DNA of 64,000 nucleotides. Source: Sulfobacillus thermosulfidooxidans (GTDB lineage: Bacteria > Bacillota > Sulfobacillia > Sulfobacillales > Sulfobacillaceae). The notes under the pieces were generated by a model. The model worked only from the letters and a program-made list of their open reading frames with translations, did no database searches and had not been told where the DNA came from. The DNA is taken from contig NZ_LGRO01000001.1 of assembly GCF_001280565.1 (NCBI RefSeq), positions 2,294,001-2,358,000 of the forward strand, read 5' to 3'. Of the stretch, positions 16,308-34,951 are shown piece after piece (the first letter of the stretch is position 1; each line of letters starts with the position of its first letter). The translations under genes and the position numbers were made by a program.

Positions 16308-16748
16308 TCAAGCACTTAACTGGTATTGAATGCGGATGACGAGATGGTGATGGTTGTTTCCTAATGGAATCGTTATCCATTTTTGTTGGTGGCGGTCAAT
16401 GCGTAGTGTATTCCCATAATGCGTGCCATGGATGCTAACCAATTCATTAATGTCCGTCGGATTGATTAACTGCACATGGGCCATTAATGGGGCGGAAGAT
16501 ACACGCAACGTCATCACAATCGTTCCGTTATGAGTGGTCATGGACTTGATCATTTGGGGACTTTTCACGACTAAGTTAATGGTTCCGGGTTCAAAGAACA
16601 AAGGGAAAGACGACCGCCAACTCTGTAACGAGCTTATTATCAAGCTTGTAATCAGAATACTTCCAATTAGAATTTTTAGCATTAAAGGACTTGTGCTGGA
16701 ATGGCGGCGTCTTCTCGTGCCGAAGTGGGTCAGAGAGAAATTTTTCAT
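16308..16748 (-). CDS. Small membrane-anchored protein of the TasA/SipW-like cluster
   Basis: 146 aa, not recognised as a named family. Basic N-terminus (RRRRH), one hydrophobic segment at about residues 22-42, then an exported-type domain of about 100 residues rich in beta-branched residues. GGGAGGTGATG lies 9 bases before ATG 16748. It is the last gene of the minus-strand cluster, followed by a terminator. The topology suggests an extracellular or envelope accessory protein; function unknown. Confidence 0.65.
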   Translation of the reverse strand: MKNFSLTHFGTRRRRHSSTSPLMLKILIGSILITSLIISSLQSWRSSFPLFFEPGTINLVVKSPQMIKSMTTHNGTIVMTLRVSSAPLMAHVQLINPTDINELVSIHGTHYGNTLRIDRHQQKWITIPLGNNHHHLVIRIQYQLSA

Positions 16749-16801
16749 TGTATTTCATCACCTCCCTTTTCATTAGCTGCTCGGCATGACTTCCGATGTT
16801 T

Positions 16802-17662
16802 TTAGGATGATGGGACAGATGCTGAACTACTCGGCATGGTCAGTACCGGGGCAGATGATGAGGACGGCGAGGATGAAGAGCTTGCTGCCTTGGGTGACGT
16901 AAGAGATGAGGATCCCGGTGCCGAAGAAGCCCCAGATTTTGACGGAACCTGGGAATTTGTCGTGGTTGTCGATGGTGAATGCCCTGGGGCTTTTTGGGAT
17001 GGGGCCGGGGCGGGTGACGAAGATGGTGGTAGTGATGAAGACGATGACGCTGAGGAAGACGAGGATGCGCTCGATGACGATGATGAAGATGAAGATGATG
17101 AAGCGGATTGATCAGAAGTCTTGGATGGTAATGGCGGTAAAGGAACTATTAAGGTATCAGCCGTTTGCTCGCTAAATCCTCCTAAATATACGGTGATTAC
17201 GGCTTCATACCGCCCGGGAATGAGGTTTGTTGGCGCATTGAATGACAAGGTATCGGCAGCACCTGGGCCTAAGGTCAAAGGGATACTCCAATGCATCGGT
17301 TCAAACGAGGGAGCAGGCGTCTTTGGGACCGGGACCTTGGAAGAATTTTTGGGCGACTTTCCGGGCGTATTTGTCTTGGGTTGGTGAAAAGCTGTGGATA
17401 ACATGAGGGAGATATCCACCGTGCATCCAAGAATTTGGGTTGTGTGATTGGCTAAGGTTCCGTATTCGATACTGCCATGGCGCGAAATAGTTCCGCTATG
17501 GCCACTCAGCGGTAGAGCTGTGGACATGGATAGGGCCTGAAAATCAAAACTTGGCGTCGAGGCTTGTGCGGTAAATGATGCATAAGTGCTCAAAAGCGGC
17601 AGAGCAACGCAGGTTGCCGCAGCAAGCAGACCCAAAGTGCCTAGTGCCGTTCCCCATTTCAT
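16802..17662 (-). CDS. Secreted protein with Ser/Pro-rich tail
   Basis: About 286 aa. An N-terminal signal-peptide-like stretch (MKWGTALGTLGLLAAATC, then ALPLLSTYASF) is like the TasA/camelysin leader style. Residues about 35-165 form an extracellular domain ending in a GAADTLSF / PGRYEAVITVYLGG beta-sandwich-like part; the last about 110 residues are almost only Ser with Ala, Pro and Lys. No LPXTG motif is present. ATG 17662 overlaps the signal-peptidase stop (ATGA), so it is translationally coupled to it and a likely substrate of that peptidase (inference). The frame is open to 17725, inside the peptidase gene. Confidence 0.75.
   Translation of the reverse strand: MKWGTALGTLGLLAAATCVALPLLSTYASFTAQASTPSFDFQALSMSTALPLSGHSGTISRHGSIEYGTLANHTTQILGCTVDISLMLSTAFHQPKTNTPGKSPKNSSKVPVPKTPAPSFEPMHWSIPLTLGPGAADTLSFNAPTNLIPGRYEAVITVYLGGFSEQTADTLIVPLPPLPSKTSDQSASSSSSSSSSSSASSSSSASSSSSLPPSSSPAPAPSQKAPGHSPSTTTTNSQVPSKSGASSAPGSSSLTSPKAASSSSSPSSSSAPVLTMPSSSASVPSS
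16850..17110. repeat. Low-complexity triplet tract encoding the Ser-rich tail
   Basis: Imperfect GAT/GAA/GAC/GAG triplets on the + strand, equal to TCN/AGC Ser codons on the minus strand, densest at 17030-17105. The open + strand frame here (Asp/Glu-rich) is a mirror of the Ser codons. The tract is prone to slippage. Confidence 0.75.
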
Positions 17663-18237
17663 GATTGGATGTCCTTTCGCGCGGGACGAACAACCTTGGT
17701 CAAGACGACCGAAATCGCTGTCCATCCGGCTAACATCTCAAGAAGCCAGAGCCAGCGGGTCTTAATGAACACAATCACATAGCCTAAGTCCGGAATGGCA
17801 AAATGATAAACCCCAACAATGTTGGTTTCCGGAGTGAGAAAAGCATCGGGATACTTATTGGCTTCCCCTTTGGTTTTGATGAAAACCTTGTCATTTTTGT
17901 GGATGATTCCGGTGATTTGATGCGTTAATAGCACACCTTGTTGAATAGGATTCGCGAAGGTTACGATCTCTCCCGGTTTTAAGGGCATATGGGCAGTAAA
18001 CCTTGTGTCCACGATTAAGGATCCGGTATTAAACGCAGGGGCCATGCTGCCTGAGCGCACAATATAGGTCACGGGCAGAGATGGGACTCCCATGTCCCCG
18101 AGATCGAGAACCAAAAAGAAGGCAAATATCGTCAGAAACACACCGATAAGGGACCACGATGCCCACTTGCGCCACCACGTATTGGCTCGTGATGATTTAT
18201 GATGGCGCCGTGATTTTGATGGTTCAAGAGCTTGCAT
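17659..18237 (-). CDS. sipW: SipW-type signal peptidase I
   Basis: 192 aa with an N-terminal basic stretch, a membrane span at about 28-47 and another near the C-terminus (about 155-182). The catalytic Ser lies in VRSGSMAPAFNTGSLI (about residue 63) and the general base is a His in LLTHQITG rather than Lys, the ER/SipW-type Ser-His arrangement. SipW in Bacillus processes TasA and TapA for biofilm fibres; here TasA-like and Ser-rich exported genes flank it. AAAGGAGG precedes ATG 18237. The last bases overlap the next gene's ATG. Confidence 0.88.
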   Translation of the reverse strand: MQALEPSKSRRHHKSSRANTWWRKWASWSLIGVFLTIFAFFLVLDLGDMGVPSLPVTYIVRSGSMAPAFNTGSLIVDTRFTAHMPLKPGEIVTFANPIQQGVLLTHQITGIIHKNDKVFIKTKGEANKYPDAFLTPETNIVGVYHFAIPDLGYVIVFIKTRWLWLLEMLAGWTAISVVLTKVVRPARKDIQS

Positions 18238-18411
18238 ATTTTTTGCCTCCTTTAAATTTATAAGTTTATCTAAGGTGGCCCAATAAGCTCACGCGTATTA
18301 ATTTGGTGCAATTAACAGTGAAAGAAACTGATATCGGAAGAAAGAGATCTCCCTGATAAAAATGCGAGAAAATGGGACACAGACATTTACATAGGGATGG
18401 GTTCTCCCTCA

Positions 18412-18738
18412 TTACATGGAATGTAACGGTTTATGTGTGAAGCTATATACAAGAAACAGTAAGGCGAGAAGAATCCACGCACTCCACACAATTCCAGTTA
18501 ATGGAGTAATGACGACGTGATTGAAATGTTTTATTTCCCGGTACATCTCATAACCCCAAATAACGGACAAAATCCCAATGAATATCAGAGTTTGTGGGTG
18601 TTTCATGGCCAGTCGGTGTGTGAGAATTAGCCAAATGCCCCAATATCCTGATACGAACCCGAATTTGAGGGCGGAGCGGGACCGCTGCCACCCAAGCCAC
18701 GGTGAGAAAAGAATGCGTTTTTCGTGTTTGGTTGGCAT
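18412..18738 (-). CDS. Small integral membrane protein
   Basis: 108 aa, family not recognised. Three hydrophobic segments at about 25-43, 48-66 and 78-98, with a basic N-terminus. It sits between the TasA-like and SipW-like genes in the same orientation; a G-rich AAGGGGC/AGGGGT stretch precedes ATG 18738. Could be a secretion accessory or a general small membrane protein; context only. Confidence 0.6.
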   Translation of the reverse strand: MPTKHEKRILFSPWLGWQRSRSALKFGFVSGYWGIWLILTHRLAMKHPQTLIFIGILSVIWGYEMYREIKHFNHVVITPLTGIVWSAWILLALLFLVYSFTHKPLHSM

Positions 18739-18800
18739 GACCCCTAGCCCCTTTTTAGCCCTTGTTTCTTCATAAACTAGCCATTACAATATTTTTAGCG

Positions 18801-18848
18801 ATAAAAAATCTCTCGGCCATTCTATTTTCTTCCCAAAAATAGGATGGC
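18801..18848 (-). terminator. Terminator downstream of the TasA-like gene
   Basis: On the minus strand GCCATCCTATTTT pairs with AAAATAGAATGGC (one mismatch) and is followed by CGAGAGATTTTTTAT. It begins 5 bases after the TasA-like stop (18853), so the fibre-protein gene can be expressed in excess over the genes behind it. Confidence 0.7.
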
Positions 18849-18852
18849 TTTT

Positions 18853-19482
18853 TTATGGCTGAGGAGGAGTACCCGGAGCTGGTGGATTTTGAGGCGGTGA
18901 ATTGGGATTAATCAGTTGCTGCCCGGGTTGGAGTGTTGTGTTGTCGGCTTGTATAGCTTTAGCCTGGATGGTAAAAGAACCCTGGGATGCCTGGTAGCCG
19001 TTGCCCGCCATATAAGGAAGCTGAACATTGACCATTACCGTGACCGATTTGCCGGGTGCTAAGACGATGTAATCATTTGAGAGTAGTGAAGTTTGGGGTC
19101 CCGGTCCAGCGAGGGTATATTTGACCGTGGCGGGGGTAGGTGGGCTAAACAATGCCCCAGAAACCACGCTCGAACCGATCGTAAACAGTTCCGTCAGACT
19201 GCCAGTGTTTGTCACTGTCAACGGAGCCGACCAGGTATCACCCGGAGCCATGTTCGTGGGACTGTCAATGTTCAAATCGATGCTATTTGGGCCCGTGGCG
19301 TGCTCACTTTCCATGTATTTTAAGGCTGCCGGGCTAAAGGCGATTTTTACGGTACCTGCCATAAAATTTTGGGGCGAACTCGTCGCGGTCGAACTAAACT
19401 GCGCAAAACTGGAAGCACCCATGGCGGCGAGCATGGCGGCAATCGCGGCCTCCGCCCCAATCAATTTGGTTTTGGCTGTCAT
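18853..19482 (-). CDS. TasA/camelysin-family secreted protein
   Basis: 209 aa. Signal peptide of the TasA/camelysin style at about 1-28 (KLIGAEAAIAAMLAAMG, then SSFAQFSST), followed by a beta-sandwich domain with the family features NFMAGTVKI near residue 40, NMAPGDTWSAPLTVTNTG near 75 and ideally spaced later strands. The C-terminus is Pro/Asn/Gln-rich (PNSPPQNPPAPGTPPQP). TasA proteins polymerise into biofilm fibres; camelysins are cell-surface proteins processed by SipW. The neighbouring SipW-type peptidase supports that role. AAAAGGAG precedes ATG 19482. Confidence 0.85.
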   Translation of the reverse strand: MTAKTKLIGAEAAIAAMLAAMGASSFAQFSSTATSSPQNFMAGTVKIAFSPAALKYMESEHATGPNSIDLNIDSPTNMAPGDTWSAPLTVTNTGSLTELFTIGSSVVSGALFSPPTPATVKYTLAGPGPQTSLLSNDYIVLAPGKSVTVMVNVQLPYMAGNGYQASQGSFTIQAKAIQADNTTLQPGQQLINPNSPPQNPPAPGTPPQP

Positions 19483-20315: not shown

Positions 20316-20621
20316 CCATAAACCCTCCTTTAAACCCTCCTTGGTTTTCTCGGACGATATGTCTACCCCTTGGTAACAAATGATTAAATTCGACGGCACG
20401 TGGAGATTTCCTGTTTTTGTTGCCGAGATTTTGCAAGGACTAGATATTAGAGCCGTTTGCAATGAGAATTGGACCAGAAATGATGTCATCGTGGCGTTGA
20501 CCAGTTTTTACGGTATACCATTTCTTAGCACAAGAATTAATTGTCGTATAAAAGGATTTTTGGTCGAATGGGCGAATAACATTTTATAGTATTGGATGTC
20601 GAATTTTGTGGAGGACGTATC
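20316..20621. other. Divergent intergenic region with a duplicated Shine-Dalgarno sequence
   Basis: About 305 bases between the His-rich protein gene and the EAL gene. On the minus strand AAGGAGGGTTTA occurs twice in tandem (about 20319-20342) immediately before the His-rich gene. A weak TTGGTC-17-TTTATA pair precedes the EAL gene at about 20560-20588. Confidence 0.5.
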
Positions 20622-21341
20622 ATGACTTCTTGTGCCCGTGACGCATTAAATCATGCCTTAGTCACACAAAGGGTTCGCTCAGTTTTTCAGCCCATCTGGA
20701 ATGTGGATGGCCAGTGGTTAGGATTCGAGGCTCTCACCCGGTTTTGGAATGGATGTCCTCCCGATCAAGTTTTTTCAGCTGCAACCAACGCGAAAGAACT
20801 CGAGACCTTAGATGCTATTGCGATTACGCAGGCAATTGAGCGTGCCCGCCGTTTACCGGGTAAGTTATTCGTCAATATCAGTGCGTTATCCACAGCGCAA
20901 ATCCCTTTATGGACCCGGTATACCGAAAATGACCGGATTGTGTGGGAAATTACAGAAACGCATCCTCTCACCAAAGACAGCATGGAGGCCATTTCCTGGC
21001 TCAAACAGCATGGACACGTGCTCGCACTGGATGATGCTGGTACACAATTTTCGACCAAACAACGCTTAGACATCTTACGACCGCAAATCGTTAAACTCAG
21101 TTTGACCATTGTGCATGAATGGGCTCATGGTTTGCCGCAGGCTCTTAGACAGTGGATCACATGGGCGAAAATGCATTCCGCATTGATTATTGCCGAAGGG
21201 ATTGAAGCTCGCGAATGGATTCACACCCTTGAAGAGGAGGGGGTGCATGCAGTTCAGGGATTTGCTCTTGGGCGTCCCGAAGAGGCGGCATTCTGGGAAG
21301 CACAAGATTTCACGAAATTAACTTTGCCGCGTTTCTCCTAA
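20622..21341 (+). CDS. EAL-domain c-di-GMP phosphodiesterase-like protein
   Basis: 239 aa, a stand-alone EAL domain. Expected metal- and substrate-binding residues are mostly present: Glu of GFEALTRF, Asn of LFVNISA, Glu of WEITETH, Asp-Asp of ALDDAGTQF, Lys of QIVKLS, Glu of IAEGIEARE and Gln of VQGFALGRP. The usual DDFGTG loop is altered to DDAGTQ, so activity may be reduced. The family hydrolyses c-di-GMP to pGpG. GTGGAGGACG precedes ATG 20622. Its stop is 17 bases from the convergent GGDEF gene, an opposing-enzyme pair. Confidence 0.85.
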   Translation: MTSCARDALNHALVTQRVRSVFQPIWNVDGQWLGFEALTRFWNGCPPDQVFSAATNAKELETLDAIAITQAIERARRLPGKLFVNISALSTAQIPLWTRYTENDRIVWEITETHPLTKDSMEAISWLKQHGHVLALDDAGTQFSTKQRLDILRPQIVKLSLTIVHEWAHGLPQALRQWITWAKMHSALIIAEGIEAREWIHTLEEEGVHAVQGFALGRPEEAAFWEAQDFTKLTLPRFS

Positions 21342-21358
21342 TTCGTTCTTGTTCCGAG

Positions 21359-23371
21359 TTATTGTGTTGTTGGTGACGCAGATTGGTGGATTTGCCACCA
21401 CGGACGGTGTTCTCTTTTATGTTGTTTAGCGATGTAGAGGGCCTCATCGGCATGCGAAATGAGCCGATTGACATCGGGGTGGCCAGCGTCTAATGGATAA
21501 AGTGTTATGCCAAGACTTCCTTCGAGGAGAAAAGGAGACGGGAGTGGCGGGACTTGAACCGCGGAAAGAACGGTCGATTTGAAACGATTGAGACGCTGAT
21601 GGAGTTCCGTATAGGAATGAATATCGGTCAACACCATTAAAAACTCATCGCCACCCCAGCGCGCCACGAGATCGGTGGAACGAAGGCTCTTTTGTAGGCG
21701 TTGTCCCACGACCTGCAATACCGCATCGCCTGCCGCATGTCCCCAGGTATCGTTAATAGTTTTAAAATTATCGAGATCGAGTAGAGCAATCCCGACCCAG
21801 TTGGAGTCCGAAGCCCGTGCTAATAATGTTGGCAACTGGTCATAGACAGCCGAACGGTTGAATAACTGGGTTAACGTGTCATGCTGCGCTAACCATTGAT
21901 GATGTTGTTTTTCTTGTTGGATTTTACGAGTGTTATCCCAAGCATCCAAACTCAGGGTAATCAGGCGGCCAATTTGTACAATAAGCTCTACCACGGTTTC
22001 ATTAAACACATGCGGCTTCGATGTGGTTAAGGACAATACCGCATACCGCTCTTTGCCTCGGTCAATAGGGACGGCAGCTCCTGCTGCCCAGCCTTGGGTC
22101 TGCAAAAAAGCGTGCCATTCATTATTGCCGGGCAATTGATGATGGTGTTGATGGAGTTGGATGCTGCCGTGCTTCCACACCTTAGCAATTAACGGTTCTT
22201 CATCGTCAACACGGACGGGATAATGAGGCAATTGTTCAGTTCCCCAGCCTGCGGCGGCCACTAGTTGAAAGGTTCCTGCGGCGTCGGGACGGGCAATCCA
22301 CGCCGCAAGAAAAAGGCCACTGGCAATGAGGTGATCACAGACGGCTTGCAATAAGGCCAAGTCACTGCGGGGACGAAATAAGGCTTGCACCGCATTGAGT
22401 AACGCGTGATAAAGGCGTTCGGCGGGTAATGTGGGTTCGCCCGGGACGGGCGTATGACGAGTAGAGGTCATCACTAAGTGGATTTTATGGGCAAGTTGTT
22501 GCCAGGTCTCTTTTTGAGGCTGCTGGATAAAATAGCGCGGAATCGGGCTAAAAAAGATGCAAATCGTATAGGTATCGAGTGAATCTGTATGTAATGGCAG
22601 AACAAAAGCCGATTGCCACCAGCGTGGAGAAAGCGGAATATTGCGGGTATGACAAGCCCGGGTTTCTTTGTCACAGGCAATACCCCGGCCAATGGTCCAT
22701 TGGCCTTGGTTACGCAAATCGGTTAACCATTTTCGCAACTCATCGAGCGATAGGTCTTTGATTCCCATAAGATGTTGGGTAGACAGACGGTTTTCAGTTT
22801 CAGACCATGATCCCAGCCAGATTCCCCTGATGGTTTGGGATTGGGTAAACAACGTCAGGACCTCAGGTAGTCCAATGGAGGCCTCATGCCGCTCCAGTAA
22901 TGTGGTAACGTCCATAAGAATTTTCCATTCCTGATCTTGCCATTGCGACAGTACGGCATATTGACGCGACAAATCATCCATGAGCGAGGGCAGTATTTCC
23001 AGTACGCTCTGCATGGTGCTTGGTTGTTTGCTGAGCCACTGGGTTAACCGGGCAGCAGCTTGCGACAGACACCACCGGGGAAATCCCAGACGTTCATAAG
23101 ACAAGGCGAGTTGCCTGGCTCGCATTATTCGGGATTTCCCAGCAGAACCCTGGATCACGGCTCTCACATAATGCATGTGAACTTGCAGAAGATCTGTCTT
23201 TTGAGCCTCACTGGCCCGGTTCCATAAATTTCGGACCTCACGATGTTCTTGCAAATGGCTATAAAGGTCCAAAACAAATTGCCGAATCGGGTCATCCCCG
23301 GATCCAGTAGACGTTCGAGACTTTCGAGTTGCGATAGGTGTTTTGGTTGATAGCGCACGATTAGTTTTCAT
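21359..23371 (-). CDS. GAF-GGDEF diguanylate cyclase
   Basis: About 670 aa. N-terminal helical region about 20-230 includes IRQFVLDLYSHLQ and a RLGFPRWCL turn that loosely recall globin-type or RsbR-type sensor domains (low confidence). A GAF domain occupies about 330-490. The C-terminal cyclase (about 510-660) has the intact signature RWGGDEF and the upstream DLDNFKTINDTWGH, so GTP-to-c-di-GMP activity is expected; no RxxD product-inhibition site was checked. The start is uncertain: ATG 23371 gives the most compact protein; an ATG at 23408 and a longer frame to 23620 exist without ribosome binding sites. Confidence 0.83.
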   Translation of the reverse strand: MKTNRALSTKTPIATRKSRTSTGSGDDPIRQFVLDLYSHLQEHREVRNLWNRASEAQKTDLLQVHMHYVRAVIQGSAGKSRIMRARQLALSYERLGFPRWCLSQAAARLTQWLSKQPSTMQSVLEILPSLMDDLSRQYAVLSQWQDQEWKILMDVTTLLERHEASIGLPEVLTLFTQSQTIRGIWLGSWSETENRLSTQHLMGIKDLSLDELRKWLTDLRNQGQWTIGRGIACDKETRACHTRNIPLSPRWWQSAFVLPLHTDSLDTYTICIFFSPIPRYFIQQPQKETWQQLAHKIHLVMTSTRHTPVPGEPTLPAERLYHALLNAVQALFRPRSDLALLQAVCDHLIASGLFLAAWIARPDAAGTFQLVAAAGWGTEQLPHYPVRVDDEEPLIAKVWKHGSIQLHQHHHQLPGNNEWHAFLQTQGWAAGAAVPIDRGKERYAVLSLTTSKPHVFNETVVELIVQIGRLITLSLDAWDNTRKIQQEKQHHQWLAQHDTLTQLFNRSAVYDQLPTLLARASDSNWVGIALLDLDNFKTINDTWGHAAGDAVLQVVGQRLQKSLRSTDLVARWGGDEFLMVLTDIHSYTELHQRLNRFKSTVLSAVQVPPLPSPFLLEGSLGITLYPLDAGHPDVNRLISHADEALYIAKQHKREHRPWWQIHQSASPTTQ

Positions 23372-23570
23372 AGCGCTTATTATACTGTTTGTCCGCTGAT
23401 TCCTCATATGGGATATGTGGGTTTTGTGATGGAGTTTATCGGCAATTTTGAGTCCGGTGACGAAAGTCACAACAAGTGATGACCTTCGGTTCTCGTGCTG
23501 GTTCCGCCCTTCCGTCATGATTGCATTAAACAATCCGTTAGCGTTGACGATAAGGAGGCTTAGCACACTC

Positions 23571-24470
23571 ATGAACATTATTGAAGTCACCGGTGTGGTC
23601 AAACAATATGAATCTGTCACCGCTTTAAATCATGTTTCCCTATCCATTCCCCCAGGCCAAATCGTGGCCATTTTAGGACCCAATGGCGCAGGCAAAACCA
23701 CTCTGCTAGAAATTTTAGAGGGGTTAATCCCAGCGGATGCTGGCGAGATTTACGTATTAGGTGAAGACGTGCGGAAAAATGCTCGCCAGGTTAAAAACCG
23801 CATTGGAATCAGTTTACAAAATACATCATTTTTTGATCGCCTGTCTGTCGAGGAAACGCTGCGCTTGTTTGGGGCATTTTTTTCTTATCACCGGCCTGTG
23901 GATGCTTTGTTGAAATATGTGGGGTTGTTTGAAAAACGTCATCAACGGGTTTCCCAACTATCCGGTAGGCAAAAGCAGCGTGTGGCCTTGGCGTTAGCAT
24001 TGATTAATAATCCCGAACTGGTCTTTTTAGATGAACCGACGACAGGACTGGATCCGGCTGCGCGCCGCGATATTTGGGCTCTTATAGAGTCTATGCAGCA
24101 AGAAGGACGGACGGTGCTATTAACCACGCATTATATGGAGGAAGCGTCCTATTTAGCCGATACTGTGGTGATTATGGACCATGGCCAGATTTTGGTGCAA
24201 GGAACCGTTGAGCAATTGCTCCGGGATTATTCCCCGGAACAAACCGTGATCTTGGAAGGGGAAGATCTCGATTTTTTATTACAAGCTCCCTGGAACTTTC
24301 ACCACGATCATAATCAATTTGTAGCGCATGTCGTTAACGCTGCGGATCAGTTAGGGACTTTACTCGAGGCGATTCGGCAGCATGGTGGCACCATTCACCG
24401 GCTCAGTATTCATGAAGCAACCCTAGAGGATGTATTCTTGCGGTTGACAGGAAGGAGACTTGCGGTATGA
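23571..24470 (+). CDS. ABC transporter ATP-binding protein
   Basis: 299 aa ATPase of an ABC-2-type exporter. Walker A GPNGAGKTT at about 37-45, Q-loop SLQNTSFF, signature LSGRQKQRVALA (Gly-Arg in place of the usual Gly-Gly), Walker B LVFLDEPTTGLD and switch His in TTHYMEE. The C-terminal 80 residues are the extra domain seen in drug/lipid exporters. TAAGGAGG 9 bases upstream supports ATG 23571; the frame is open to 23448. Overlaps the permease gene by 4 bases (ATGA). Confidence 0.93.
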   Translation: MNIIEVTGVVKQYESVTALNHVSLSIPPGQIVAILGPNGAGKTTLLEILEGLIPADAGEIYVLGEDVRKNARQVKNRIGISLQNTSFFDRLSVEETLRLFGAFFSYHRPVDALLKYVGLFEKRHQRVSQLSGRQKQRVALALALINNPELVFLDEPTTGLDPAARRDIWALIESMQQEGRTVLLTTHYMEEASYLADTVVIMDHGQILVQGTVEQLLRDYSPEQTVILEGEDLDFLLQAPWNFHHDHNQFVAHVVNAADQLGTLLEAIRQHGGTIHRLSIHEATLEDVFLRLTGRRLAV

Positions 24471-27376: not shown

Positions 27377-28420
27377 TCAAAAGACATAATGACTCAGGAT
27401 CAGACTTAACATGTGCCAAAACTTCTGTGTCTTTTCGTTGATAAAATACCCTGGCCAGAGACTATAGACGAGAAGGGCGGGGGACCCCAAAGCTCCATGG
27501 GAAGGTAGTGTCCATATGCCTAAAGAACGCACGGCGCGAGATGGGAATGCGGAAGAAGTGTCTTGATAAGGCAATAAACCATTAAGGATAAGGGGCTGTC
27601 CTTGGTTGCGTATGCGGTGAATGAGGGCAGTGATGTCCACAATCTCCGAAGGAACCTGAGGAAAGTCACCGGCAAGGACTTGCCCTTTGGGATCGTTGTT
27701 TCGATAATCCATGAGAACAATACCGAGGAGTTGTTCCTTCTGACAGAGATGGCCAAGCCTTTCTCGAATCATTGTAGGGACGTGCAGCGGTTTAAAAGAT
27801 GGATGAGATATTGCGAGGGCATTTTCGACCAGGGTCCAACGAAATGATTCCATTTCCTGATAGGCTTGCCACTGAAGATGTAAACCTTTGATTAACCGGT
27901 CCGTAATCAAGGTCCGGAGCCCTTGATGTTCCCATGACGTATTGGGCAATACGCGCTGCAATGTCTGCCATTCGAACTGAAAGTATTTTAGCATGAGATT
28001 CACCGGCCATCCTTCGAGAAAAAGCCTTTTGCCTCGCTGAAAGCCTACAGCCTGTTCTGGTGACGAGGGAAAGGGGGACGATAGCAGGTGGCGCAAATAA
28101 TCCCGGTGATGGTTTTTTTGTTGTTGGAGATCTTCGGGCGTTAAAGAATGTCGCAGAGTGTCGGTTTCCTTATCGGTGTTCATATAGGCATCACATGTTT
28201 CGGCCGCCTCTTCACAATAGCGTTCTAAAAGATGATGACACCAGATATCCCATAAATTCAAAGCAGTGGGATTGTCGTGGATGTATGCGTTGAGGTCAAA
28301 CGCCTCGTCACTTTTCTTGGTCACTTTGGTGAGTTCGGCTTTCATCCGGTCTAACGCTTCTTCCGCCCGTTCAATTGATTCGAGCAGCAAGGTCTGCAAA
28401 TCTTGAGGATATGTGGTCAT
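27377..28420 (-). CDS. Conserved sensor-like cytosolic protein of unknown function
   Basis: 347 aa, no named family recognised. Residues 1-210 are helical and Trp/His-rich; the segment GFQRGKRLFLEGWPVN recalls the position of the loop in the N-terminal region of the nearby GAF-GGDEF protein. Residues about 215-347 look like a GAF/PAS-type alpha-beta domain (ERLGHLCQKEQLLGIVLMDY, RSLGIWTLPSHG). No catalytic motif. AGGGA precedes ATG 28420. Convergent with the NarL regulator. Likely a signalling partner, but that is inference. Confidence 0.55.
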   Translation of the reverse strand: MTTYPQDLQTLLLESIERAEEALDRMKAELTKVTKKSDEAFDLNAYIHDNPTALNLWDIWCHHLLERYCEEAAETCDAYMNTDKETDTLRHSLTPEDLQQQKNHHRDYLRHLLSSPFPSSPEQAVGFQRGKRLFLEGWPVNLMLKYFQFEWQTLQRVLPNTSWEHQGLRTLITDRLIKGLHLQWQAYQEMESFRWTLVENALAISHPSFKPLHVPTMIRERLGHLCQKEQLLGIVLMDYRNNDPKGQVLAGDFPQVPSEIVDITALIHRIRNQGQPLILNGLLPYQDTSSAFPSRAVRSLGIWTLPSHGALGSPALLVYSLWPGYFINEKTQKFWHMLSLILSHYVF

Positions 28421-29071
28421 GAGACATCCCTATCGTGTGTGACATTGACTAGACAAATCCTTGGAATCATGAGGTTTTTCGCTTTATCCGTGAGTTGTGA
28501 TGCTATCAACAACTTTCTCTCCATAATTTTTGCTTGCAACTTAATCTTCAGGATCATCATCAACATAATCGGGTCGTGTGTCAGGAATATTACACCGTTA
28601 TGACAACGCTTCACGGCATGTTACAACACAGCGCCGCTCTTAAAGAACACAGAAAACCTATGGGCTAAGCCATGAGTGTTGCGATCTTTTGGCCAATACC
28701 CTTTTCCCGAACTTTCTATGAGAATACATACGGTAGACAGCTATGACTTGACTGCAACCACGCTGTGATCCGCGGGAGCTCCCGGCTCCTTATTGCCCGT
28801 GTCCTAAGATATTCCTATTCTTCACGCGATGCCTGTACTCAGCCATGGGTCAAAAGTCATGTGATTTGTGTCGGCGATGGACGATGACACCGCCCTATCG
28901 TATACCCTATAGGTGACAGGATTCGACGATTTCATGAATGGTTAATGCATTTATGAGTCTTATCCTTTTATTAGCGAGTTAGAGTTGTCAAATGCGTGTA
29001 ATTCCCCAGTAGTAAGCAGGAAATCATTCCCTGTTATTTTGATGGAGCAAGAATGTTAGGAGAATGTTGAC
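28421..29071. other. Intergenic region, nothing identified
   Basis: About 650 bases between divergent genes. Frames present are short, overlap on both strands and lack ribosome binding sites. I see no inverted repeat of note or clear promoter. Confidence 0.4.
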
Positions 29072-29806
29072 ATGGCGGGACAACAAAGTATCAACATTTT
29101 GGTTGTGGCCGAAGCCGAACGGGACCGGCTGACGTGGTCTGCCGCATTGGAGCATTTTGGACTGACCGTCATTAATGTCGCGACAGGACATGACGGTATT
29201 CGCGAACTGCGCCAAGGCGGGATTGATGTCGTCATCTTAGAACGCCGCGTTTCTGATTCCCATGGATTAGTGGTATGCCAGGAAATGCGACGACATTCTG
29301 CCACGCCGATTGTCATGATTGCCGATATGTTTGACGAATGGGATGAAGTGGCCGCTTTTAGAATGGGTGCGAGTGATTATCTGACCAAACCCGTGGCTAT
29401 TGGTCGCTTGCTTTCACGGATTTACCGGCTAGCCCGAGAACGCCCTCATACAATCGACCCGGTAGGCGACGCCGAGGAGTTCGTGATTTATCTTGACCAA
29501 CAAATTGTTTCATTTAAAGGACATGAATTGACCCTTTCAGCGCGGGAAACCAAGTTATTGGAAGTGCTATTTAAGGCCCCCAAGATTATTTTGACGCGAG
29601 AAAGCCTCTTAGATCAGGTCTGGGGCTTGGAATCATTAGATTTGGAAGTGCGCACGGTTGACGTGGCGATTGCCCGTTTGCGAAAAAAGCTTCAAGATCA
29701 TTTTTCTATCAACCCAATCGAAACAGTCATCGGTACAGGATATCGGTACCGCTCCGACGTCTTACGGGTACGTTTTGTGACATCCCAGGAGGTGATCTCA
29801 TCATGA
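29072..29806 (+). CDS. OmpR-type regulator with a phosphorylation-dead receiver
   Basis: 244 aa. Receiver fold at about 8-122 but the phospho-acceptor Asp is replaced by Glu57 (VVILERRVSD), the acidic pair is reduced to one Glu (VVAEAE) and the conserved Thr is Ala (VMIADMF); the Lys of DYLTKP is kept. Residues 140-235 are an intact winged helix (LTLSARETKLLEVLF, VRTVDVAIARLRKKL, VIGTGYRY). It is therefore likely to bind DNA without phosphorylation or respond to something else. Its stop overlaps the next ATG (ATGA), so both genes form one operon. A weak TTAGGAG precedes ATG 29072. Confidence 0.88.
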   Translation: MAGQQSINILVVAEAERDRLTWSAALEHFGLTVINVATGHDGIRELRQGGIDVVILERRVSDSHGLVVCQEMRRHSATPIVMIADMFDEWDEVAAFRMGASDYLTKPVAIGRLLSRIYRLARERPHTIDPVGDAEEFVIYLDQQIVSFKGHELTLSARETKLLEVLFKAPKIILTRESLLDQVWGLESLDLEVRTVDVAIARLRKKLQDHFSINPIETVIGTGYRYRSDVLRVRFVTSQEVISS

Positions 29807-31023
29807 ATGACAAATTATGGGACTCGAATCGCTTTCATGCGCGTGCGCGCATATTGCTCCAGCACTTAACTCGACTAAAAAATCTTTGGACATTGGGCCC
29901 CATGACGGAACGCGAAGTCCGGACGTTGTGGTTTTATTTATTTCAGTTGGCGGGAACGGGCGTTGCTCTCGATTATTCCGAGATCGTTCCGGCAGCCCGC
30001 GGATTTTTTGAATGGGTTGAAGAGACAGTCCGGCAAGGATCCATGGGAGGAGAGGAATTTCAACAACGTCTCGATTATGTTCTTGAGGCAACAACCCGTC
30101 AAATGGCAGGAGAAACCCCGAGCGCTTTGGAATCTCCCGGAGATATGGCTTGGGGAGATCGTGTCGTCATTGTCGACAATAAGCCGGCACCTAAGTGGGA
30201 AAAGGCCTTGCGCCAGCACGCCATTTCGGTATTTACGATGCCTTTTTCGCCGACGCAGGTGCTGCGTACAGCACGCATCATCCGCCCTCATATGATTCTT
30301 TTGCAGGTACATGCGGGAAGCCCTCTTCGCGAGCTGGAGTCATTATGTGCCGTTTTGCGTGATGACCGCCGATTAGACGGTATCGCATTATATCTCTATT
30401 TTCGTTCAGAGATGAGTGAACTGCCCATAAATTTGTTGCGGCATGTTGATGGACTCATCACCGCGTTTGAACGCCCCGACTTCGTGACGGCTCAGATTCT
30501 TGGAATATTGGCGCGGGTGAATCAACGACGAGAATCAAGTATTTGGGATCCCTACACGGATCTCTATTCGTTGGCCTACTTGCGAGAACGGTTGGAAGAA
30601 GAAATTATGCGGAACCAACGTCAACAAACCCGGCTAGGGATCATTGCCCTGACGGAGGATCCCCGAAGTGTTAGTGTCATGGATGCGGAACCAGGCCGAA
30701 CCTATTTGAGTATCCGGCGTCTCGCAGAGTATTTGCAGTCTCGGATTCGGCGTTCAGATATTGTGGCGTACGACGGAATGGGCCGATTTTATTTAGTGCT
30801 GTTTGAGGCAAATCGCCGAGTAATATCGGAACGGATTAAGATGATGCAACAACAAATTCGGAACGATGCCGATATGGGTTTCGGATCATTGCTTGCTGGA
30901 ATGGCTATGGCACCGGATCACGGGAATGTTCCCGAGGATTTGTTTATGCATGCCGATCGTACTTTGTGGGATGCCTTAGAGCATGTTCCCCTTTCTTCTT
31001 CGTTATCGACGCTGTCTCCCTAA
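29803..31023 (+). CDS. Degenerate Hpt-receiver-GGDEF protein
   Basis: 406 aa with three modules that normally transmit phosphate, all lacking their key residue. The N-terminal Hpt-like helix bundle (about 20-90) has Phe47 where HxLAG expects His (YLFQLAGTG). The receiver-like domain (about 120-245) has Gln168 where Asp is expected (HMILLQVHAG). The GGDEF-like domain (about 255-395) starts with the usual DPYTDLYSLAYLRERL but reads GMGRF at the signature. It probably works as a scaffold or sensor rather than an enzyme. Co-transcribed with the receiver-dead regulator. AGGAGG precedes ATG 29803. Confidence 0.82.
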   Translation: MNDKLWDSNRFHARARILLQHLTRLKNLWTLGPMTEREVRTLWFYLFQLAGTGVALDYSEIVPAARGFFEWVEETVRQGSMGGEEFQQRLDYVLEATTRQMAGETPSALESPGDMAWGDRVVIVDNKPAPKWEKALRQHAISVFTMPFSPTQVLRTARIIRPHMILLQVHAGSPLRELESLCAVLRDDRRLDGIALYLYFRSEMSELPINLLRHVDGLITAFERPDFVTAQILGILARVNQRRESSIWDPYTDLYSLAYLRERLEEEIMRNQRQQTRLGIIALTEDPRSVSVMDAEPGRTYLSIRRLAEYLQSRIRRSDIVAYDGMGRFYLVLFEANRRVISERIKMMQQQIRNDADMGFGSLLAGMAMAPDHGNVPEDLFMHADRTLWDALEHVPLSSSLSTLSP

Positions 31024-31227: not shown

Positions 31228-32901
31228 ATGATGGAAGATTTTATAATGACGATACTCATGAACATGACCGATGGGGTCTCTTTAGTGGATCTGCAGTCAA
31301 AGCGTCTAATCTTTACTAATCCTGCCCTCTTGATGATGTTAGGTTATCGCTGGGACGAACTGAAGGAATTCACCATCTACGACCTTGTTGTCAGTGACAA
31401 AAACCAAATTGATGCGCATATACAACGTGTCTTGGAGGAACGTCGCCTGGATATTTCTGAGGGAGTGTTCCGCCACAAAATCGGAACGTTCAAGAGGTTG
31501 GAAGTCCATGCCACACCATTTTGGGGAATTGATGCGTTGTTGCTGCTTGTTTTGGTCAGAGAACGGAAGGACCTCTCGGAGCCTCGTCAGCTAGGTCTGC
31601 AACAACCGGACGAGGACGAGGATAAGCGAGATGCCTTGACAGGGTTTATGACTCGCCATGCCTTCCAACAAAAAATTCAAGACGGATTATCTGCTACCGT
31701 CCAGGGGACTTTATTATGGTTGGATATTACCCATTTTATGGATATTAACAAGGACCGCGGCTTTTCGGTAGGTGACATCATCTTGAAAATGTTTGCGGAA
31801 CGGCTTCGACAGAGTGTCCCCGGGGACATCCTTATAGCCCGAATAGCGGACGATGAATTTGCCCTCTGGTCTCCTTATGACCGTGACGCATTAAGTGTCG
31901 CTCACGCGGTCCTCAACGCCGTGACTCGTCCTTATTTCGTTGACAACGATGTCCTGACGTTAACGGTTTCCATGGGCGTTGTCCGTTATCCTGAAGATGG
32001 CGTCAATATCGAGGCCCTATTCCGTCATGCGGTAGCGGCCTTGTGCCAGGCTAAAGAGGTTGTGGGAAGCACGATTTGCTCGTTTGACGCACAATATCAT
32101 GCGGGTCATATGCTCCGGTTGACCTTGCGCAATCAGATACCCAAGGCTTTAGAAAACCACGAATTTCGCCTGTTTTACCAACCCCAAATTGACATTCAGA
32201 CGAAAACACTGGTAGGGATGGAAGCGCTAGCCCGCTGGGACAAGCCCGGCTGGGGAATAATTCCTCCTGGTCAATTCATTCCGGTTATGGAACAAAGTGG
32301 ATTGATAAGCGCTTTTGGTACCTGGGTAATGAAAACTGCCTGTGTTCAAAACAAAATGTGGCAAGATGCGGGATTAAATCCGGTAAAAATCGCTGTGAAC
32401 GTGTCTGCCCAACAGTTTTCAGACAATACATTGATGGCCGCTGTTGAAGAAGCCTTAGCCATCAGTGGATTAAATCCGCAATGGATTGAGCTCGAAATTA
32501 CCGAAGGAACGGCCATGCAAGATATTGACCATACCCGCTCCTTATTGCGAGAACTGAAAAATGTGGGGATCAATGTGGTCTTGGACGATTTCGGGACGGG
32601 ATTTTCTTCGTTGGCTTACCTTAAAAATCTTCCCCTGGATGGCTTAAAAATCGATCTCAGCTTTATTCAACAGCTTCCTGATAGTGCAACGGATGCCGCG
32701 ATTGTGATTGCTATCCTCAAAATGGCCAAGGTTCTTAACTTGTATGTAATTGCCGAAGGAGTAGAGACCGCCGAACAACTCGACTTCTTACGGAATGAAG
32801 GATGTGATGTGGCTCAAGGGTATTTCGTTAGTCCCCCGAAACCTGCTCAGGACTTAGAACCGTTGTGGGAAAATGCCGCGCGGCGAACACAAGTGCAATG
32901 A
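31228..32901 (+). CDS. PAS-GGDEF-EAL protein, probable c-di-GMP phosphodiesterase
   Basis: 557 aa. PAS domain about 10-115 (MTDGVSLVD, IFTNPALLMMLGY), GGDEF domain about 130-285 with the degenerate signature ADDEF, and EAL domain about 300-550. The EAL set is complete: GMEALARW, VNVSAQQ, LEITEG, LDDFGTGFSSLAYLK, LKIDLSFI, IAEGVET and AQGYFVSPP. The expected activity is c-di-GMP hydrolysis, with the degenerate GGDEF possibly a GTP sensor as in known dual-domain phosphodiesterases. AAGGAG precedes ATG 31228. Confidence 0.92.
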   Translation: MMEDFIMTILMNMTDGVSLVDLQSKRLIFTNPALLMMLGYRWDELKEFTIYDLVVSDKNQIDAHIQRVLEERRLDISEGVFRHKIGTFKRLEVHATPFWGIDALLLLVLVRERKDLSEPRQLGLQQPDEDEDKRDALTGFMTRHAFQQKIQDGLSATVQGTLLWLDITHFMDINKDRGFSVGDIILKMFAERLRQSVPGDILIARIADDEFALWSPYDRDALSVAHAVLNAVTRPYFVDNDVLTLTVSMGVVRYPEDGVNIEALFRHAVAALCQAKEVVGSTICSFDAQYHAGHMLRLTLRNQIPKALENHEFRLFYQPQIDIQTKTLVGMEALARWDKPGWGIIPPGQFIPVMEQSGLISAFGTWVMKTACVQNKMWQDAGLNPVKIAVNVSAQQFSDNTLMAAVEEALAISGLNPQWIELEITEGTAMQDIDHTRSLLRELKNVGINVVLDDFGTGFSSLAYLKNLPLDGLKIDLSFIQQLPDSATDAAIVIAILKMAKVLNLYVIAEGVETAEQLDFLRNEGCDVAQGYFVSPPKPAQDLEPLWENAARRTQVQ

Positions 32902-33136
32902 GAGATGACCAACCAAGAAGACTGAATACATAAATTGGAAAGGAGCGCTGAAAATCGATCCGGTGAAGGCTAACACATGTTCAGCGTATGCACCGGAAAA
33001 ATGACCAGAGCGAGAAAAAATTGGAAAAGCGGATACGGCTTTGCTTTCTCATGGGGATCATAGTCACAATGGACAAAAGGCGATTGATGGTTAGAAGGAA
33101 ATTAAAGCAGCACGGATCAATAATGAGGTGGATGAT

Positions 33137-34951
33137 GTGGCAACATGGATTGAGCGCATTCGGGACACGGTGAAAAATCTGTTCCGCGGGGTTCAGACAT
33201 CATTGCATCAAGTAGGTCATCTTGCCGCATTGTTGCCAGGGCGTCATGAAGCATCGGGACGCATTTGGATTGATTCAGGTGGTCAAGTTCATGTGCAAAA
33301 TCCTCATGCTCTCCATGGACTCTATCCCATCATCATTGTTCCCCCCGCCGACAGTGGGATTACGGTTGAAATAAACGGCAATTTGGCTGAAGAGAATGAA
33401 GTTGTGGTGGAAGCGTCTGATCACATTGTGATTGCCACGATTCCAGAGCCGCCTCTTTCCCGTTTCGACATCCATATTGATGACGAGGGCATGATCGCTG
33501 TGTTGACGGTCGAATATCGTATGGGGAAAACCCGCACTATTGAATCCACGGAACCTGCCACCCGCTTGGTGATTCCGGTGAAAACTGAATGGGAGGCGCC
33601 TGATCCTATTACGGTGGAAGAAGTGCTTGAGAAGTTACACCGTTTAGGTGTTCATCCAGACCGGGTGGATCACGAAACTCTCGTAGATTTCGTCACTCGC
33701 CAGGAGTCGGGATCGGTGAGGGTGGCCCATGGGATCCCACCTGTTTCTGGAACCAGTGAATCCTATCAACCCCTTCCCGTGGAAACCAAGATTCGGTATT
33801 ACCAGGGCATTGCGGTAGACCGCCCAGGGTTTGTAGAAATCGGCGAGATAATCGGAATTTTAGTGCCGGGTGAAGCCTCTCATCCCGGAATCACGGTGTG
33901 GGGCACACCGATTCTTCCCACTGCTCCCCCTCCCAATGTCTTTAAGCTTGGGGACGGCGTTGAAATGATGGAACGGGGCATGCATCTGGTGGCGACGCGT
34001 AGTGGGCGGGTTCGGTGGGAACCCGGCCATGTGCAAGTCATCCCGGAAAAAATTTTTACAGGACCTGTGCGAACGACCCTGGCTTACGATGGAGATTTGG
34101 TCATTGAAGGGGACGTTCAAGGAAAAGTAACCGCAGTCGCGTCTGGTCATATCATTATCACGGGATCGGTCATGGACGCGGAAATTGTGGCTAAAGAACA
34201 GATTTGGATTTTTGGAGAAACGCAAGGGGCTGTGATTTATTCCGGGTATCAAGACGTTTCTTATCCCGAAGTCCTTGAGCAGTTGCGGCGATTGAATGAA
34301 GTGCTTTGGATATTGGAACATGGTTATCACCAAGTGTGTGAACGGATGCCAGATAGCCACGTCGTACCAGGCAAAATTTTTGCCTGGCTGGTTCAAACCA
34401 AATTTCCGGAATGGCGTTCATTAGTTCAGTGGTTAGAAAAAATGAAGACACGTTCTCCTTACCGGAAAAATCCCGATCTTCGCCTGTTGGTGGAAGATAT
34501 TTTGCCAGTAATCGGACGAGAGCAACTATTTCACATCGAAGACGTAACTTTGCTCGAGCGCATTCATCAAGGCATTGAGCACTTTATTGATACAGTCAAG
34601 CATGGAGAGCAAGGAAACTTCTTATCTGGAGTGTTTTTGAAAGTTGCCATTCACACCATGATTCGCAGTGCCGGTTCTGTTACCCTGCAAGAGGCCCGGT
34701 TATGCGATATTGAATCGGGCGATTTGGTGGATATCACTGGCCAAATGATTGGAGGGAATGTGACGGCCCAAGAGAGCGTAACGGCACGCACTTTGGGCTC
34801 AGAAGAAAGCATTGACACCTTCGTTTCCGTTATCAATCCCCGTGGTTTTGTGCGCAGTCACCTGATACATCCTCAAACTGTGGTGCAAATTGGAACGTAT
34901 ACGGAAGACTTTACGACTGCGATGACTGATGTTGTGATCGATCAAGGCTAA
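33137..34951 (+). CDS. FapA/DUF342-family protein
   Basis: About 604 aa (start GTG 33137, with GAGGTGGA upstream; GTG 33128 is also possible). The central and C-terminal regions carry the beta-helical FapA core: GDLVIEGDVQGKVTAVASGHIIITGSV, EIVAKEQIWIFGETQG and later DLVDITGQMIGGNVTAQESV, with a coiled-coil insert (about 350-450). The N-terminal region (about 25-210) is different from typical FapA. FapA proteins are linked to flagellar assembly or polar localisation, but no flagellar gene is in view. Its neighbours are c-di-GMP proteins, which suggests surface behaviour control (inference). Confidence 0.82.
   Translation: MATWIERIRDTVKNLFRGVQTSLHQVGHLAALLPGRHEASGRIWIDSGGQVHVQNPHALHGLYPIIIVPPADSGITVEINGNLAEENEVVVEASDHIVIATIPEPPLSRFDIHIDDEGMIAVLTVEYRMGKTRTIESTEPATRLVIPVKTEWEAPDPITVEEVLEKLHRLGVHPDRVDHETLVDFVTRQESGSVRVAHGIPPVSGTSESYQPLPVETKIRYYQGIAVDRPGFVEIGEIIGILVPGEASHPGITVWGTPILPTAPPPNVFKLGDGVEMMERGMHLVATRSGRVRWEPGHVQVIPEKIFTGPVRTTLAYDGDLVIEGDVQGKVTAVASGHIIITGSVMDAEIVAKEQIWIFGETQGAVIYSGYQDVSYPEVLEQLRRLNEVLWILEHGYHQVCERMPDSHVVPGKIFAWLVQTKFPEWRSLVQWLEKMKTRSPYRKNPDLRLLVEDILPVIGREQLFHIEDVTLLERIHQGIEHFIDTVKHGEQGNFLSGVFLKVAIHTMIRSAGSVTLQEARLCDIESGDLVDITGQMIGGNVTAQESVTARTLGSEESIDTFVSVINPRGFVRSHLIHPQTVVQIGTYTEDFTTAMTDVVIDQG

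Follow-up and report, generated by a model that had tools for sequence, protein, structure and literature searches.

Introduction

The phosphorylation site is missing from about 2% of receivers and from 0.9% of Hpt domains (PMC12632262), and at such base rates a single loss is unremarkable. Glu is the commonest replacement at the phosphoacceptor position (26%), where it may or may not mimic the phosphate (PMC4395418). CmrT, an OmpR-type regulator carrying a Glu at this position, has been inferred to be constitutively active (PMC12548384), and a recent review (PMC12632262) calls the mode of action of bacterial pseudo-receivers a mystery. Among proteins with a GGDEF fold, PopA has as its hallmark a dead active site beside which the RxxD motif is kept (PMC12564702, PMC5052742).

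Here we describe a gene pair from the biomining bacterium Sulfobacillus thermosulfidooxidans that combines such features. The pair lies in a stretch of 64,000 nucleotides (contig NZ_LGRO01000001.1, positions 2,294,001 to 2,358,000), which is referred to below as the window. What is unusual about the pair is the conserved combination of losses in one gene pair. The features to which we refer are the following; all are on the plus strand.

28903-28920, plus strand: near-palindromic upstream element TACCCTATAGGTGACAGG, about 170 bases 5' of gene 1 (identical in G026, where the flanks differ)
29072-29806, plus strand: gene 1, OmpR/PhoB-type response regulator whose receiver is dead, 244 amino acids (Pfam, orthologue clade)
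29240-29242, plus strand: codon of Glu57, the phosphoacceptor position (alignment with orthologues and 32 OmpR controls)
29519-29746, plus strand: winged-helix DNA-binding domain of gene 1 (Pfam, residues 150-225)
29803-29806, plus strand: ATGA overlap of the gene 1 stop and the gene 2 start (same in G026, G014 and G001)
29803-31023, plus strand: gene 2, Hpt-like/receiver-like/GGDEF-like protein, 406 amino acids (Pfam, alignment, AlphaFold, fold matches)
29824-30105, plus strand: four-helix bundle, probable Hpt relic, with the Phe47 codon at 29941-29943 (AlphaFold, fold matches, alignment)
30154-30522, plus strand: receiver-like domain without Asp (alignment, AlphaFold, fold matches)
30538-30984, plus strand: GGDEF-like domain with the signature GMGRF at 30775-30789 (Pfam 5e-10, catalytic columns)
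30748-30759, plus strand: RRSD, an RxxD positioned like the allosteric c-di-GMP site (I-site; alignment of five copies)
31228-32901, plus strand: linked gene 3, a protein with PAS, a GGDEF domain reading ADDEF, and an EAL phosphodiesterase domain with its catalytic residues (Pfam EAL 6e-76, alignment)
33128-34951, plus strand: linked gene 4, a FapA/DUF342-like protein (Pfam FapA_N 5e-16; downstream in G026 and G014)

Results

Distribution of the gene pair

Full-length relatives of gene 2 are present in five of the 42 genomes of the order, namely in G000 (the genome of the window), G026 (80%), and G014, G018 and G001 (27-28%); the remaining matches among these 42 genomes are ordinary GGDEF domains. 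An orthologue of gene 1 adjoins gene 2 in each of the five genomes, and the two reading frames overlap by four bases in four of them; in G018, gene 2 starts slightly upstream, which results in a longer overlap. When the active-site columns are left out of the tree, the five gene 1 copies group in one clade (100/99), apart from the 32 other OmpR regulators of the same family. The sample consists of five loci only, three of them on contigs of metagenome-assembled genomes. No further copy came up when 398 genomes of the phylum were searched with a profile, which recovered only ordinary receiver-GGDEF cyclases with a canonical GG[D/E]EF; likewise, a profile scan of the genome-contig collection returned nothing beyond the three relatives already known, and the wider neighborhoods of FapA genes contained no additional copy of the pair. 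It is their fixed adjacency that suggests an interaction between the gene 1 and gene 2 proteins, a use that had been envisaged in an earlier note made from the letters of this DNA.

The regulator encoded by gene 1 has lost more than its phosphoacceptor

Pfam recognizes a receiver fold (Response_reg, 2e-15) and a winged helix (Trans_reg_C, 1e-20) in the gene 1 protein. We compared the five copies with 32 control OmpR regulators from the same genomes; residues are listed here and below in the order G000, G026, G014, G018, G001. Position 57 reads E, E, E, E and D, so that the phosphoacceptor Asp is absent from the window and three orthologues, and Glu57 occurs in four copies spanning three genera. 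None of the five copies retains the second metal-binding Asp (E, E, Q, R, G), the switch Thr position reads A, A, S, T and A, and Lys106 is present in every copy but that of G014 (K, K, T, K, K). Among the controls, Asp57 is found in 31 of 32, and the second metal-binding Asp, a T or S at the switch position and the Lys in all 32. By this comparison, the metal-binding pair of the window's regulator is absent in addition to the phosphoacceptor.

Gene 1 copies from different genera share 54-56% identity in the DNA-binding domain, as opposed to 25-27% in the receiver. The pair of residues 92-112 in the alpha4-beta5-alpha5 dimer face reads E-R, E-R, E-S, E-A and Q-H in the gene 1 family, while the canonical partners Arg/Lys92 and Glu112 are present in 30 and 31 of the 32 controls, respectively. 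Judged from these residues, the dimer interface may be altered or insulated, and it perhaps keeps gene 1 apart from other OmpR regulators. We also considered a RitR-like redox control through a Cys in the linker and discarded it: the sole Cys of gene 1, Cys69, sits in the receiver and is absent from G014 and G018.

Three degenerate domains in the gene 2 protein

GGDEF (5e-10) is the sole domain that Pfam recognizes in gene 2; the same search gave no Hpt and no receiver match, and the assignment of these two domains therefore rests on AlphaFold, fold matches and the G001 relative. The AlphaFold model (mean pLDDT 79.5) comprises a four-helix bundle (residues 8-101), an alternating beta/alpha region (120-245) and a GGDEF fold (248-394), and its best fold matches in the PDB are PleD, WspR and DgcR. 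When modelled alone, the bundle reached a pLDDT of 87.3; HPt and CheA-P1 proteins were its best natural matches, found amid designed bundles with E values of 0.08 or worse. Because none of these matches is significant, the N-terminal domain can be called an Hpt domain only with probability. This assignment is aided by the G001 relative, which has a weak Pfam Hpt match (E 0.016) and whose motif HEIQGYGRALGW aligns a His with Phe47 of the window protein (the His in HEIQGYG). In a profile comparison with the Hpt domains of the order, Phe47 was aligned to the phospho-His at scores no better than those of controls; for Hpt and receiver alike, the profile-profile comparison gave the right alignment order, again with scores no better than controls.

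The Hpt position reads F, F, L, F and H, the phospho-accepting His thus being missing from the window protein. At the receiver site, Asp is replaced in every copy (Q or H170, N, N, S, R); because of a two-residue insertion, the site in the window protein corresponds to either Gln168 or His170, neither of which is acidic. The GGDEF signatures are GMGRF, GMGRF, GAGRF, GAGRW and PAGMA.

Both reading frames and all residues named in the earlier note were found in place (Glu57 in gene 1; Phe47, Gln168 and GMGRF, residues 325-329, in gene 2), and the losses exceed those it listed, as gene 1 is also without its metal-binding pair and its switch Thr. Its statement that every phosphotransfer module is dead agrees with these residue losses but must be corrected in one respect, since a GGDEF domain is a cyclase and not a phosphotransfer module.

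Purifying selection and the order of the losses

Between the sister species G000 and G026, dN/dS is 0.045 for gene 1 and 0.10 for gene 2, in which the helical part has 0.14, the receiver-like part 0.08 and the GGDEF-like part 0.076. Nearby, a canonical NarL-type regulator gives a similar 0.059, and OsmC 0.11; downstream, gene 3 has a value of 0.13 and the FapA-like gene one of 0.12 over its 5' part.

The earlier note had proposed to look for the same substitutions in relatives, and had taken relatives with canonical residues as a sign of ordinary decay. The picture is mixed: four copies share Glu57, while the most distant one, G001, keeps the regulator Asp57 and the Hpt His but lacks the metal site, the switch Thr, the Asp of the second receiver and the GGDEF signature. 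The alignment of the relatives rules out a recent loss confined to the strain of the window. Since G001 retains two of the canonical residues with the rest gone, the losses were stepwise; Asp57 and the Hpt His are missing only from the Sulfobacillaceae copies. The metal site of gene 1, like the receiver and cyclase residues of gene 2, was presumably lost before the five lineages split, or else in parallel; the polarity is taken from the canonical state, and the tree does not resolve the branching inside the five-copy clade. Most losses are shared across copies and old, and consequently they cannot be counted as the four independent events of which the earlier note spoke.

The GGDEF-like domain keeps an RxxD motif

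We compared the catalytic columns of the five gene 2 copies with those of 42 canonical GGDEF domains. In all five copies the residues at the metal (284), Lys289, Asn292, Gly/His296-297, Gly/Asp300-301, Arg323, GGDEF and Lys392 positions are gone, the first Gly of GGDEF, retained in four of the five, being the sole exception. With GMGRF as its signature and the metal- and guanine-binding residues lost throughout, activity of gene 2 as a diguanylate cyclase can be ruled out.

Directly before this signature, Arg316 and Asp319 (RxxD) are invariant in the five copies. Arg344 is invariant as well and is a candidate for the partner Arg of the I-site, although its placement is uncertain. The gene 2 protein hence combines two traits of PopA-like effectors, a GGDEF fold with a dead active site and a retained RxxD I-site. 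The RxxD residues are also present in 86% and 93% of the control cyclases, and because they are so common in ordinary cyclases their retention may be structural. For nucleotide sensing, the other use that had been envisaged for the pair, the retained RxxD offers a concrete lead, and gene 2 may bind c-di-GMP at this site.

Neighborhood of the pair

Downstream of the pair, the other Sulfobacillaceae copies (G026, G014 and G018) likewise carry an EAL protein gene, and the alignment shows intact EAL catalytic motifs in these copies and in gene 3; in G001, a GGDEF-EAL gene is located about 4 kb from the pair. The GGDEF domain of gene 3 (ADDEF) is without RxxD. Gene 3 begins 204 bases past gene 2, which makes a single transcript uncertain. 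As to gene 4, the G018 contig stops short of the position of the FapA-like gene. In G026, insertion sequences break the upstream histidine kinase gene and the downstream FapA-like gene (L086:1439-3115, L086:12787-14031), and the pair is intact. Within the order, stand-alone EAL genes or single receiver genes are recurrent neighbors of FapA-like genes (L118, L119, L121, L122, L124, L127, L128).

The upstream element was rejected as a regulon motif, being a single site in the genome, and no Rfam RNA, the c-di-GMP riboswitch included, was found near or upstream of the pair. Less than 9 kb from the pair (20592-23620) there are also a stand-alone EAL gene and a gene for a GAF-GGDEF protein whose GGDEF motif is intact, making the region rich in c-di-GMP genes. 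On the minus strand (16308-19482), a signal-peptidase-like gene is grouped with the gene of a Ser-rich protein and with one whose product resembles camelysin/TasA (Pfam Peptidase_M73, E 0.0017, short of the cut-off); together they look like a biofilm-matrix cluster near c-di-GMP genes. A further minus-strand gene (27377-28420), divergently oriented, encodes a protein of 347 amino acids that has no significant family match (52% identity to its G026 counterpart, dN/dS 0.25) and is possibly a sensor.

Discussion

At the level of sequence, the loss of phosphotransfer and cyclase residues, purifying selection, the fixed pairing, the retention of RxxD and the intact EAL motifs are all apparent. We favor, with a probability of about 45%, the reading that the pair constitutes a phosphorylation-independent regulator gated by a c-di-GMP receptor derived from a degenerate GGDEF domain, with the EAL enzyme as a local sink. 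The receiver of gene 1 would be fixed by Glu57, in an activated-like state or otherwise, and would not accept phosphate; gene 1 would bind DNA constitutively. The gene 2 product would be a pseudo-relay protein that retains its three folds as interaction surfaces and whose GGDEF-like domain, instead of synthesizing c-di-GMP, would bind it at the retained RxxD. Binding would alter the engagement of gene 1 by gene 2 and, in turn, the transcription of target genes, while the EAL phosphodiesterase encoded by gene 3 would clear c-di-GMP locally and so control its level at this site.

The main rival, which we consider a serious though somewhat less probable possibility, is a pure protein-interaction device in which gene 2 binds no nucleotide and acts on gene 1 as a scaffold or anti-activator, the signal being received by the four-helix domain or the receiver-like domain or conveyed by the expression level. 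All three domains of gene 2 are degenerate yet constrained, pseudo-receivers often work by protein contact or expression level (PMC12632262), and the family-specific Glu92 together with the lost Arg/Lys92-Glu112 pair suggests a changed dimer or partner surface. This explanation leaves unaccounted for the invariance of RxxD despite the loss of every catalytic residue, and also the linked EAL gene.

Residual phosphorylation, either of another residue or of a weakly active receiver, appears improbable: Lys106 in four of five copies and the Asp and His of G001 speak for it, but the second metal-binding Asp is gone from all five copies and the switch Thr from most. Slightly less probable still is that the degenerate GGDEF domain binds a different nucleotide, for example GTP or (p)ppGpp. 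Some other degenerate GGDEF domains, for instance that of Caulobacter PdeA, do bind GTP, and the fold matches to PleD include a structure that contains both c-di-GMP and ppGpp. In all five gene 2 copies, however, the active-site residues that would bind guanine and metal (columns 284, 292, 301 and 327-328) are lost. That the pair consists of non-functional remnants is very improbable in spite of its patchy occurrence (5/42 genomes), as intact frames, conserved gene order, dN/dS values of 0.045-0.10, Glu57 common to three genera and a DNA-binding domain 54-56% identical between genera exclude decay for these lineages and uphold the view of the earlier note that a selected state is seen here.

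A more far-reaching version of the c-di-GMP reading, which on balance we regard as doubtful, is that a complete pseudo-phosphorelay, with regulator, Hpt and receiver alike dead, was turned step by step into a transcription switch gated by c-di-GMP, its former relay domains persisting solely as docking surfaces that link the receptor to the locked regulator. If true, the pair would show a route from a phosphorelay to a second-messenger switch. It also places a pseudo-receiver regulator in an operon with one candidate partner, a testable ligand and relatives at differing stages of loss. Mineral attachment by the host, a biomining bacterium, is of practical interest.

Among described systems, the gene 2 protein is most readily compared with PopA, a Caulobacter member of the PleD family that likewise has receiver and GGDEF domains, a dead active site and a retained RxxD (PMC12564702, PMC5052742). 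Unlike gene 2, PopA has no Hpt-like domain, is not part of an operon with an OmpR-type regulator and functions in CtrA proteolysis; c-di-GMP binding at RxxD has been demonstrated for PopA and is predicted from the sequence for gene 2. In overall fold, residues 118-394 of gene 2 resemble PleD, WspR and DgcR, which in contrast are phosphorylated, active cyclases. Gene 1 joins CmrT, ChxR and HP1043 as an OmpR-type regulator with a replaced phosphoacceptor; CmrT accompanies a normal kinase and regulator, whereas gene 1 has a pseudo-relay partner (PMC12548384, PMC12632262). Finally, the grouping of a transcription factor with GGDEF and EAL proteins, and their proposed cooperation, recalls the local c-di-GMP module PdeR/DgcM/MlrA of E. 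coli (PMC5052742). In that module, MlrA is a MerR-like protein, DgcM has cyclase activity and the interactions have been demonstrated, while those proposed here would join an OmpR-type regulator to a degenerate GGDEF protein.
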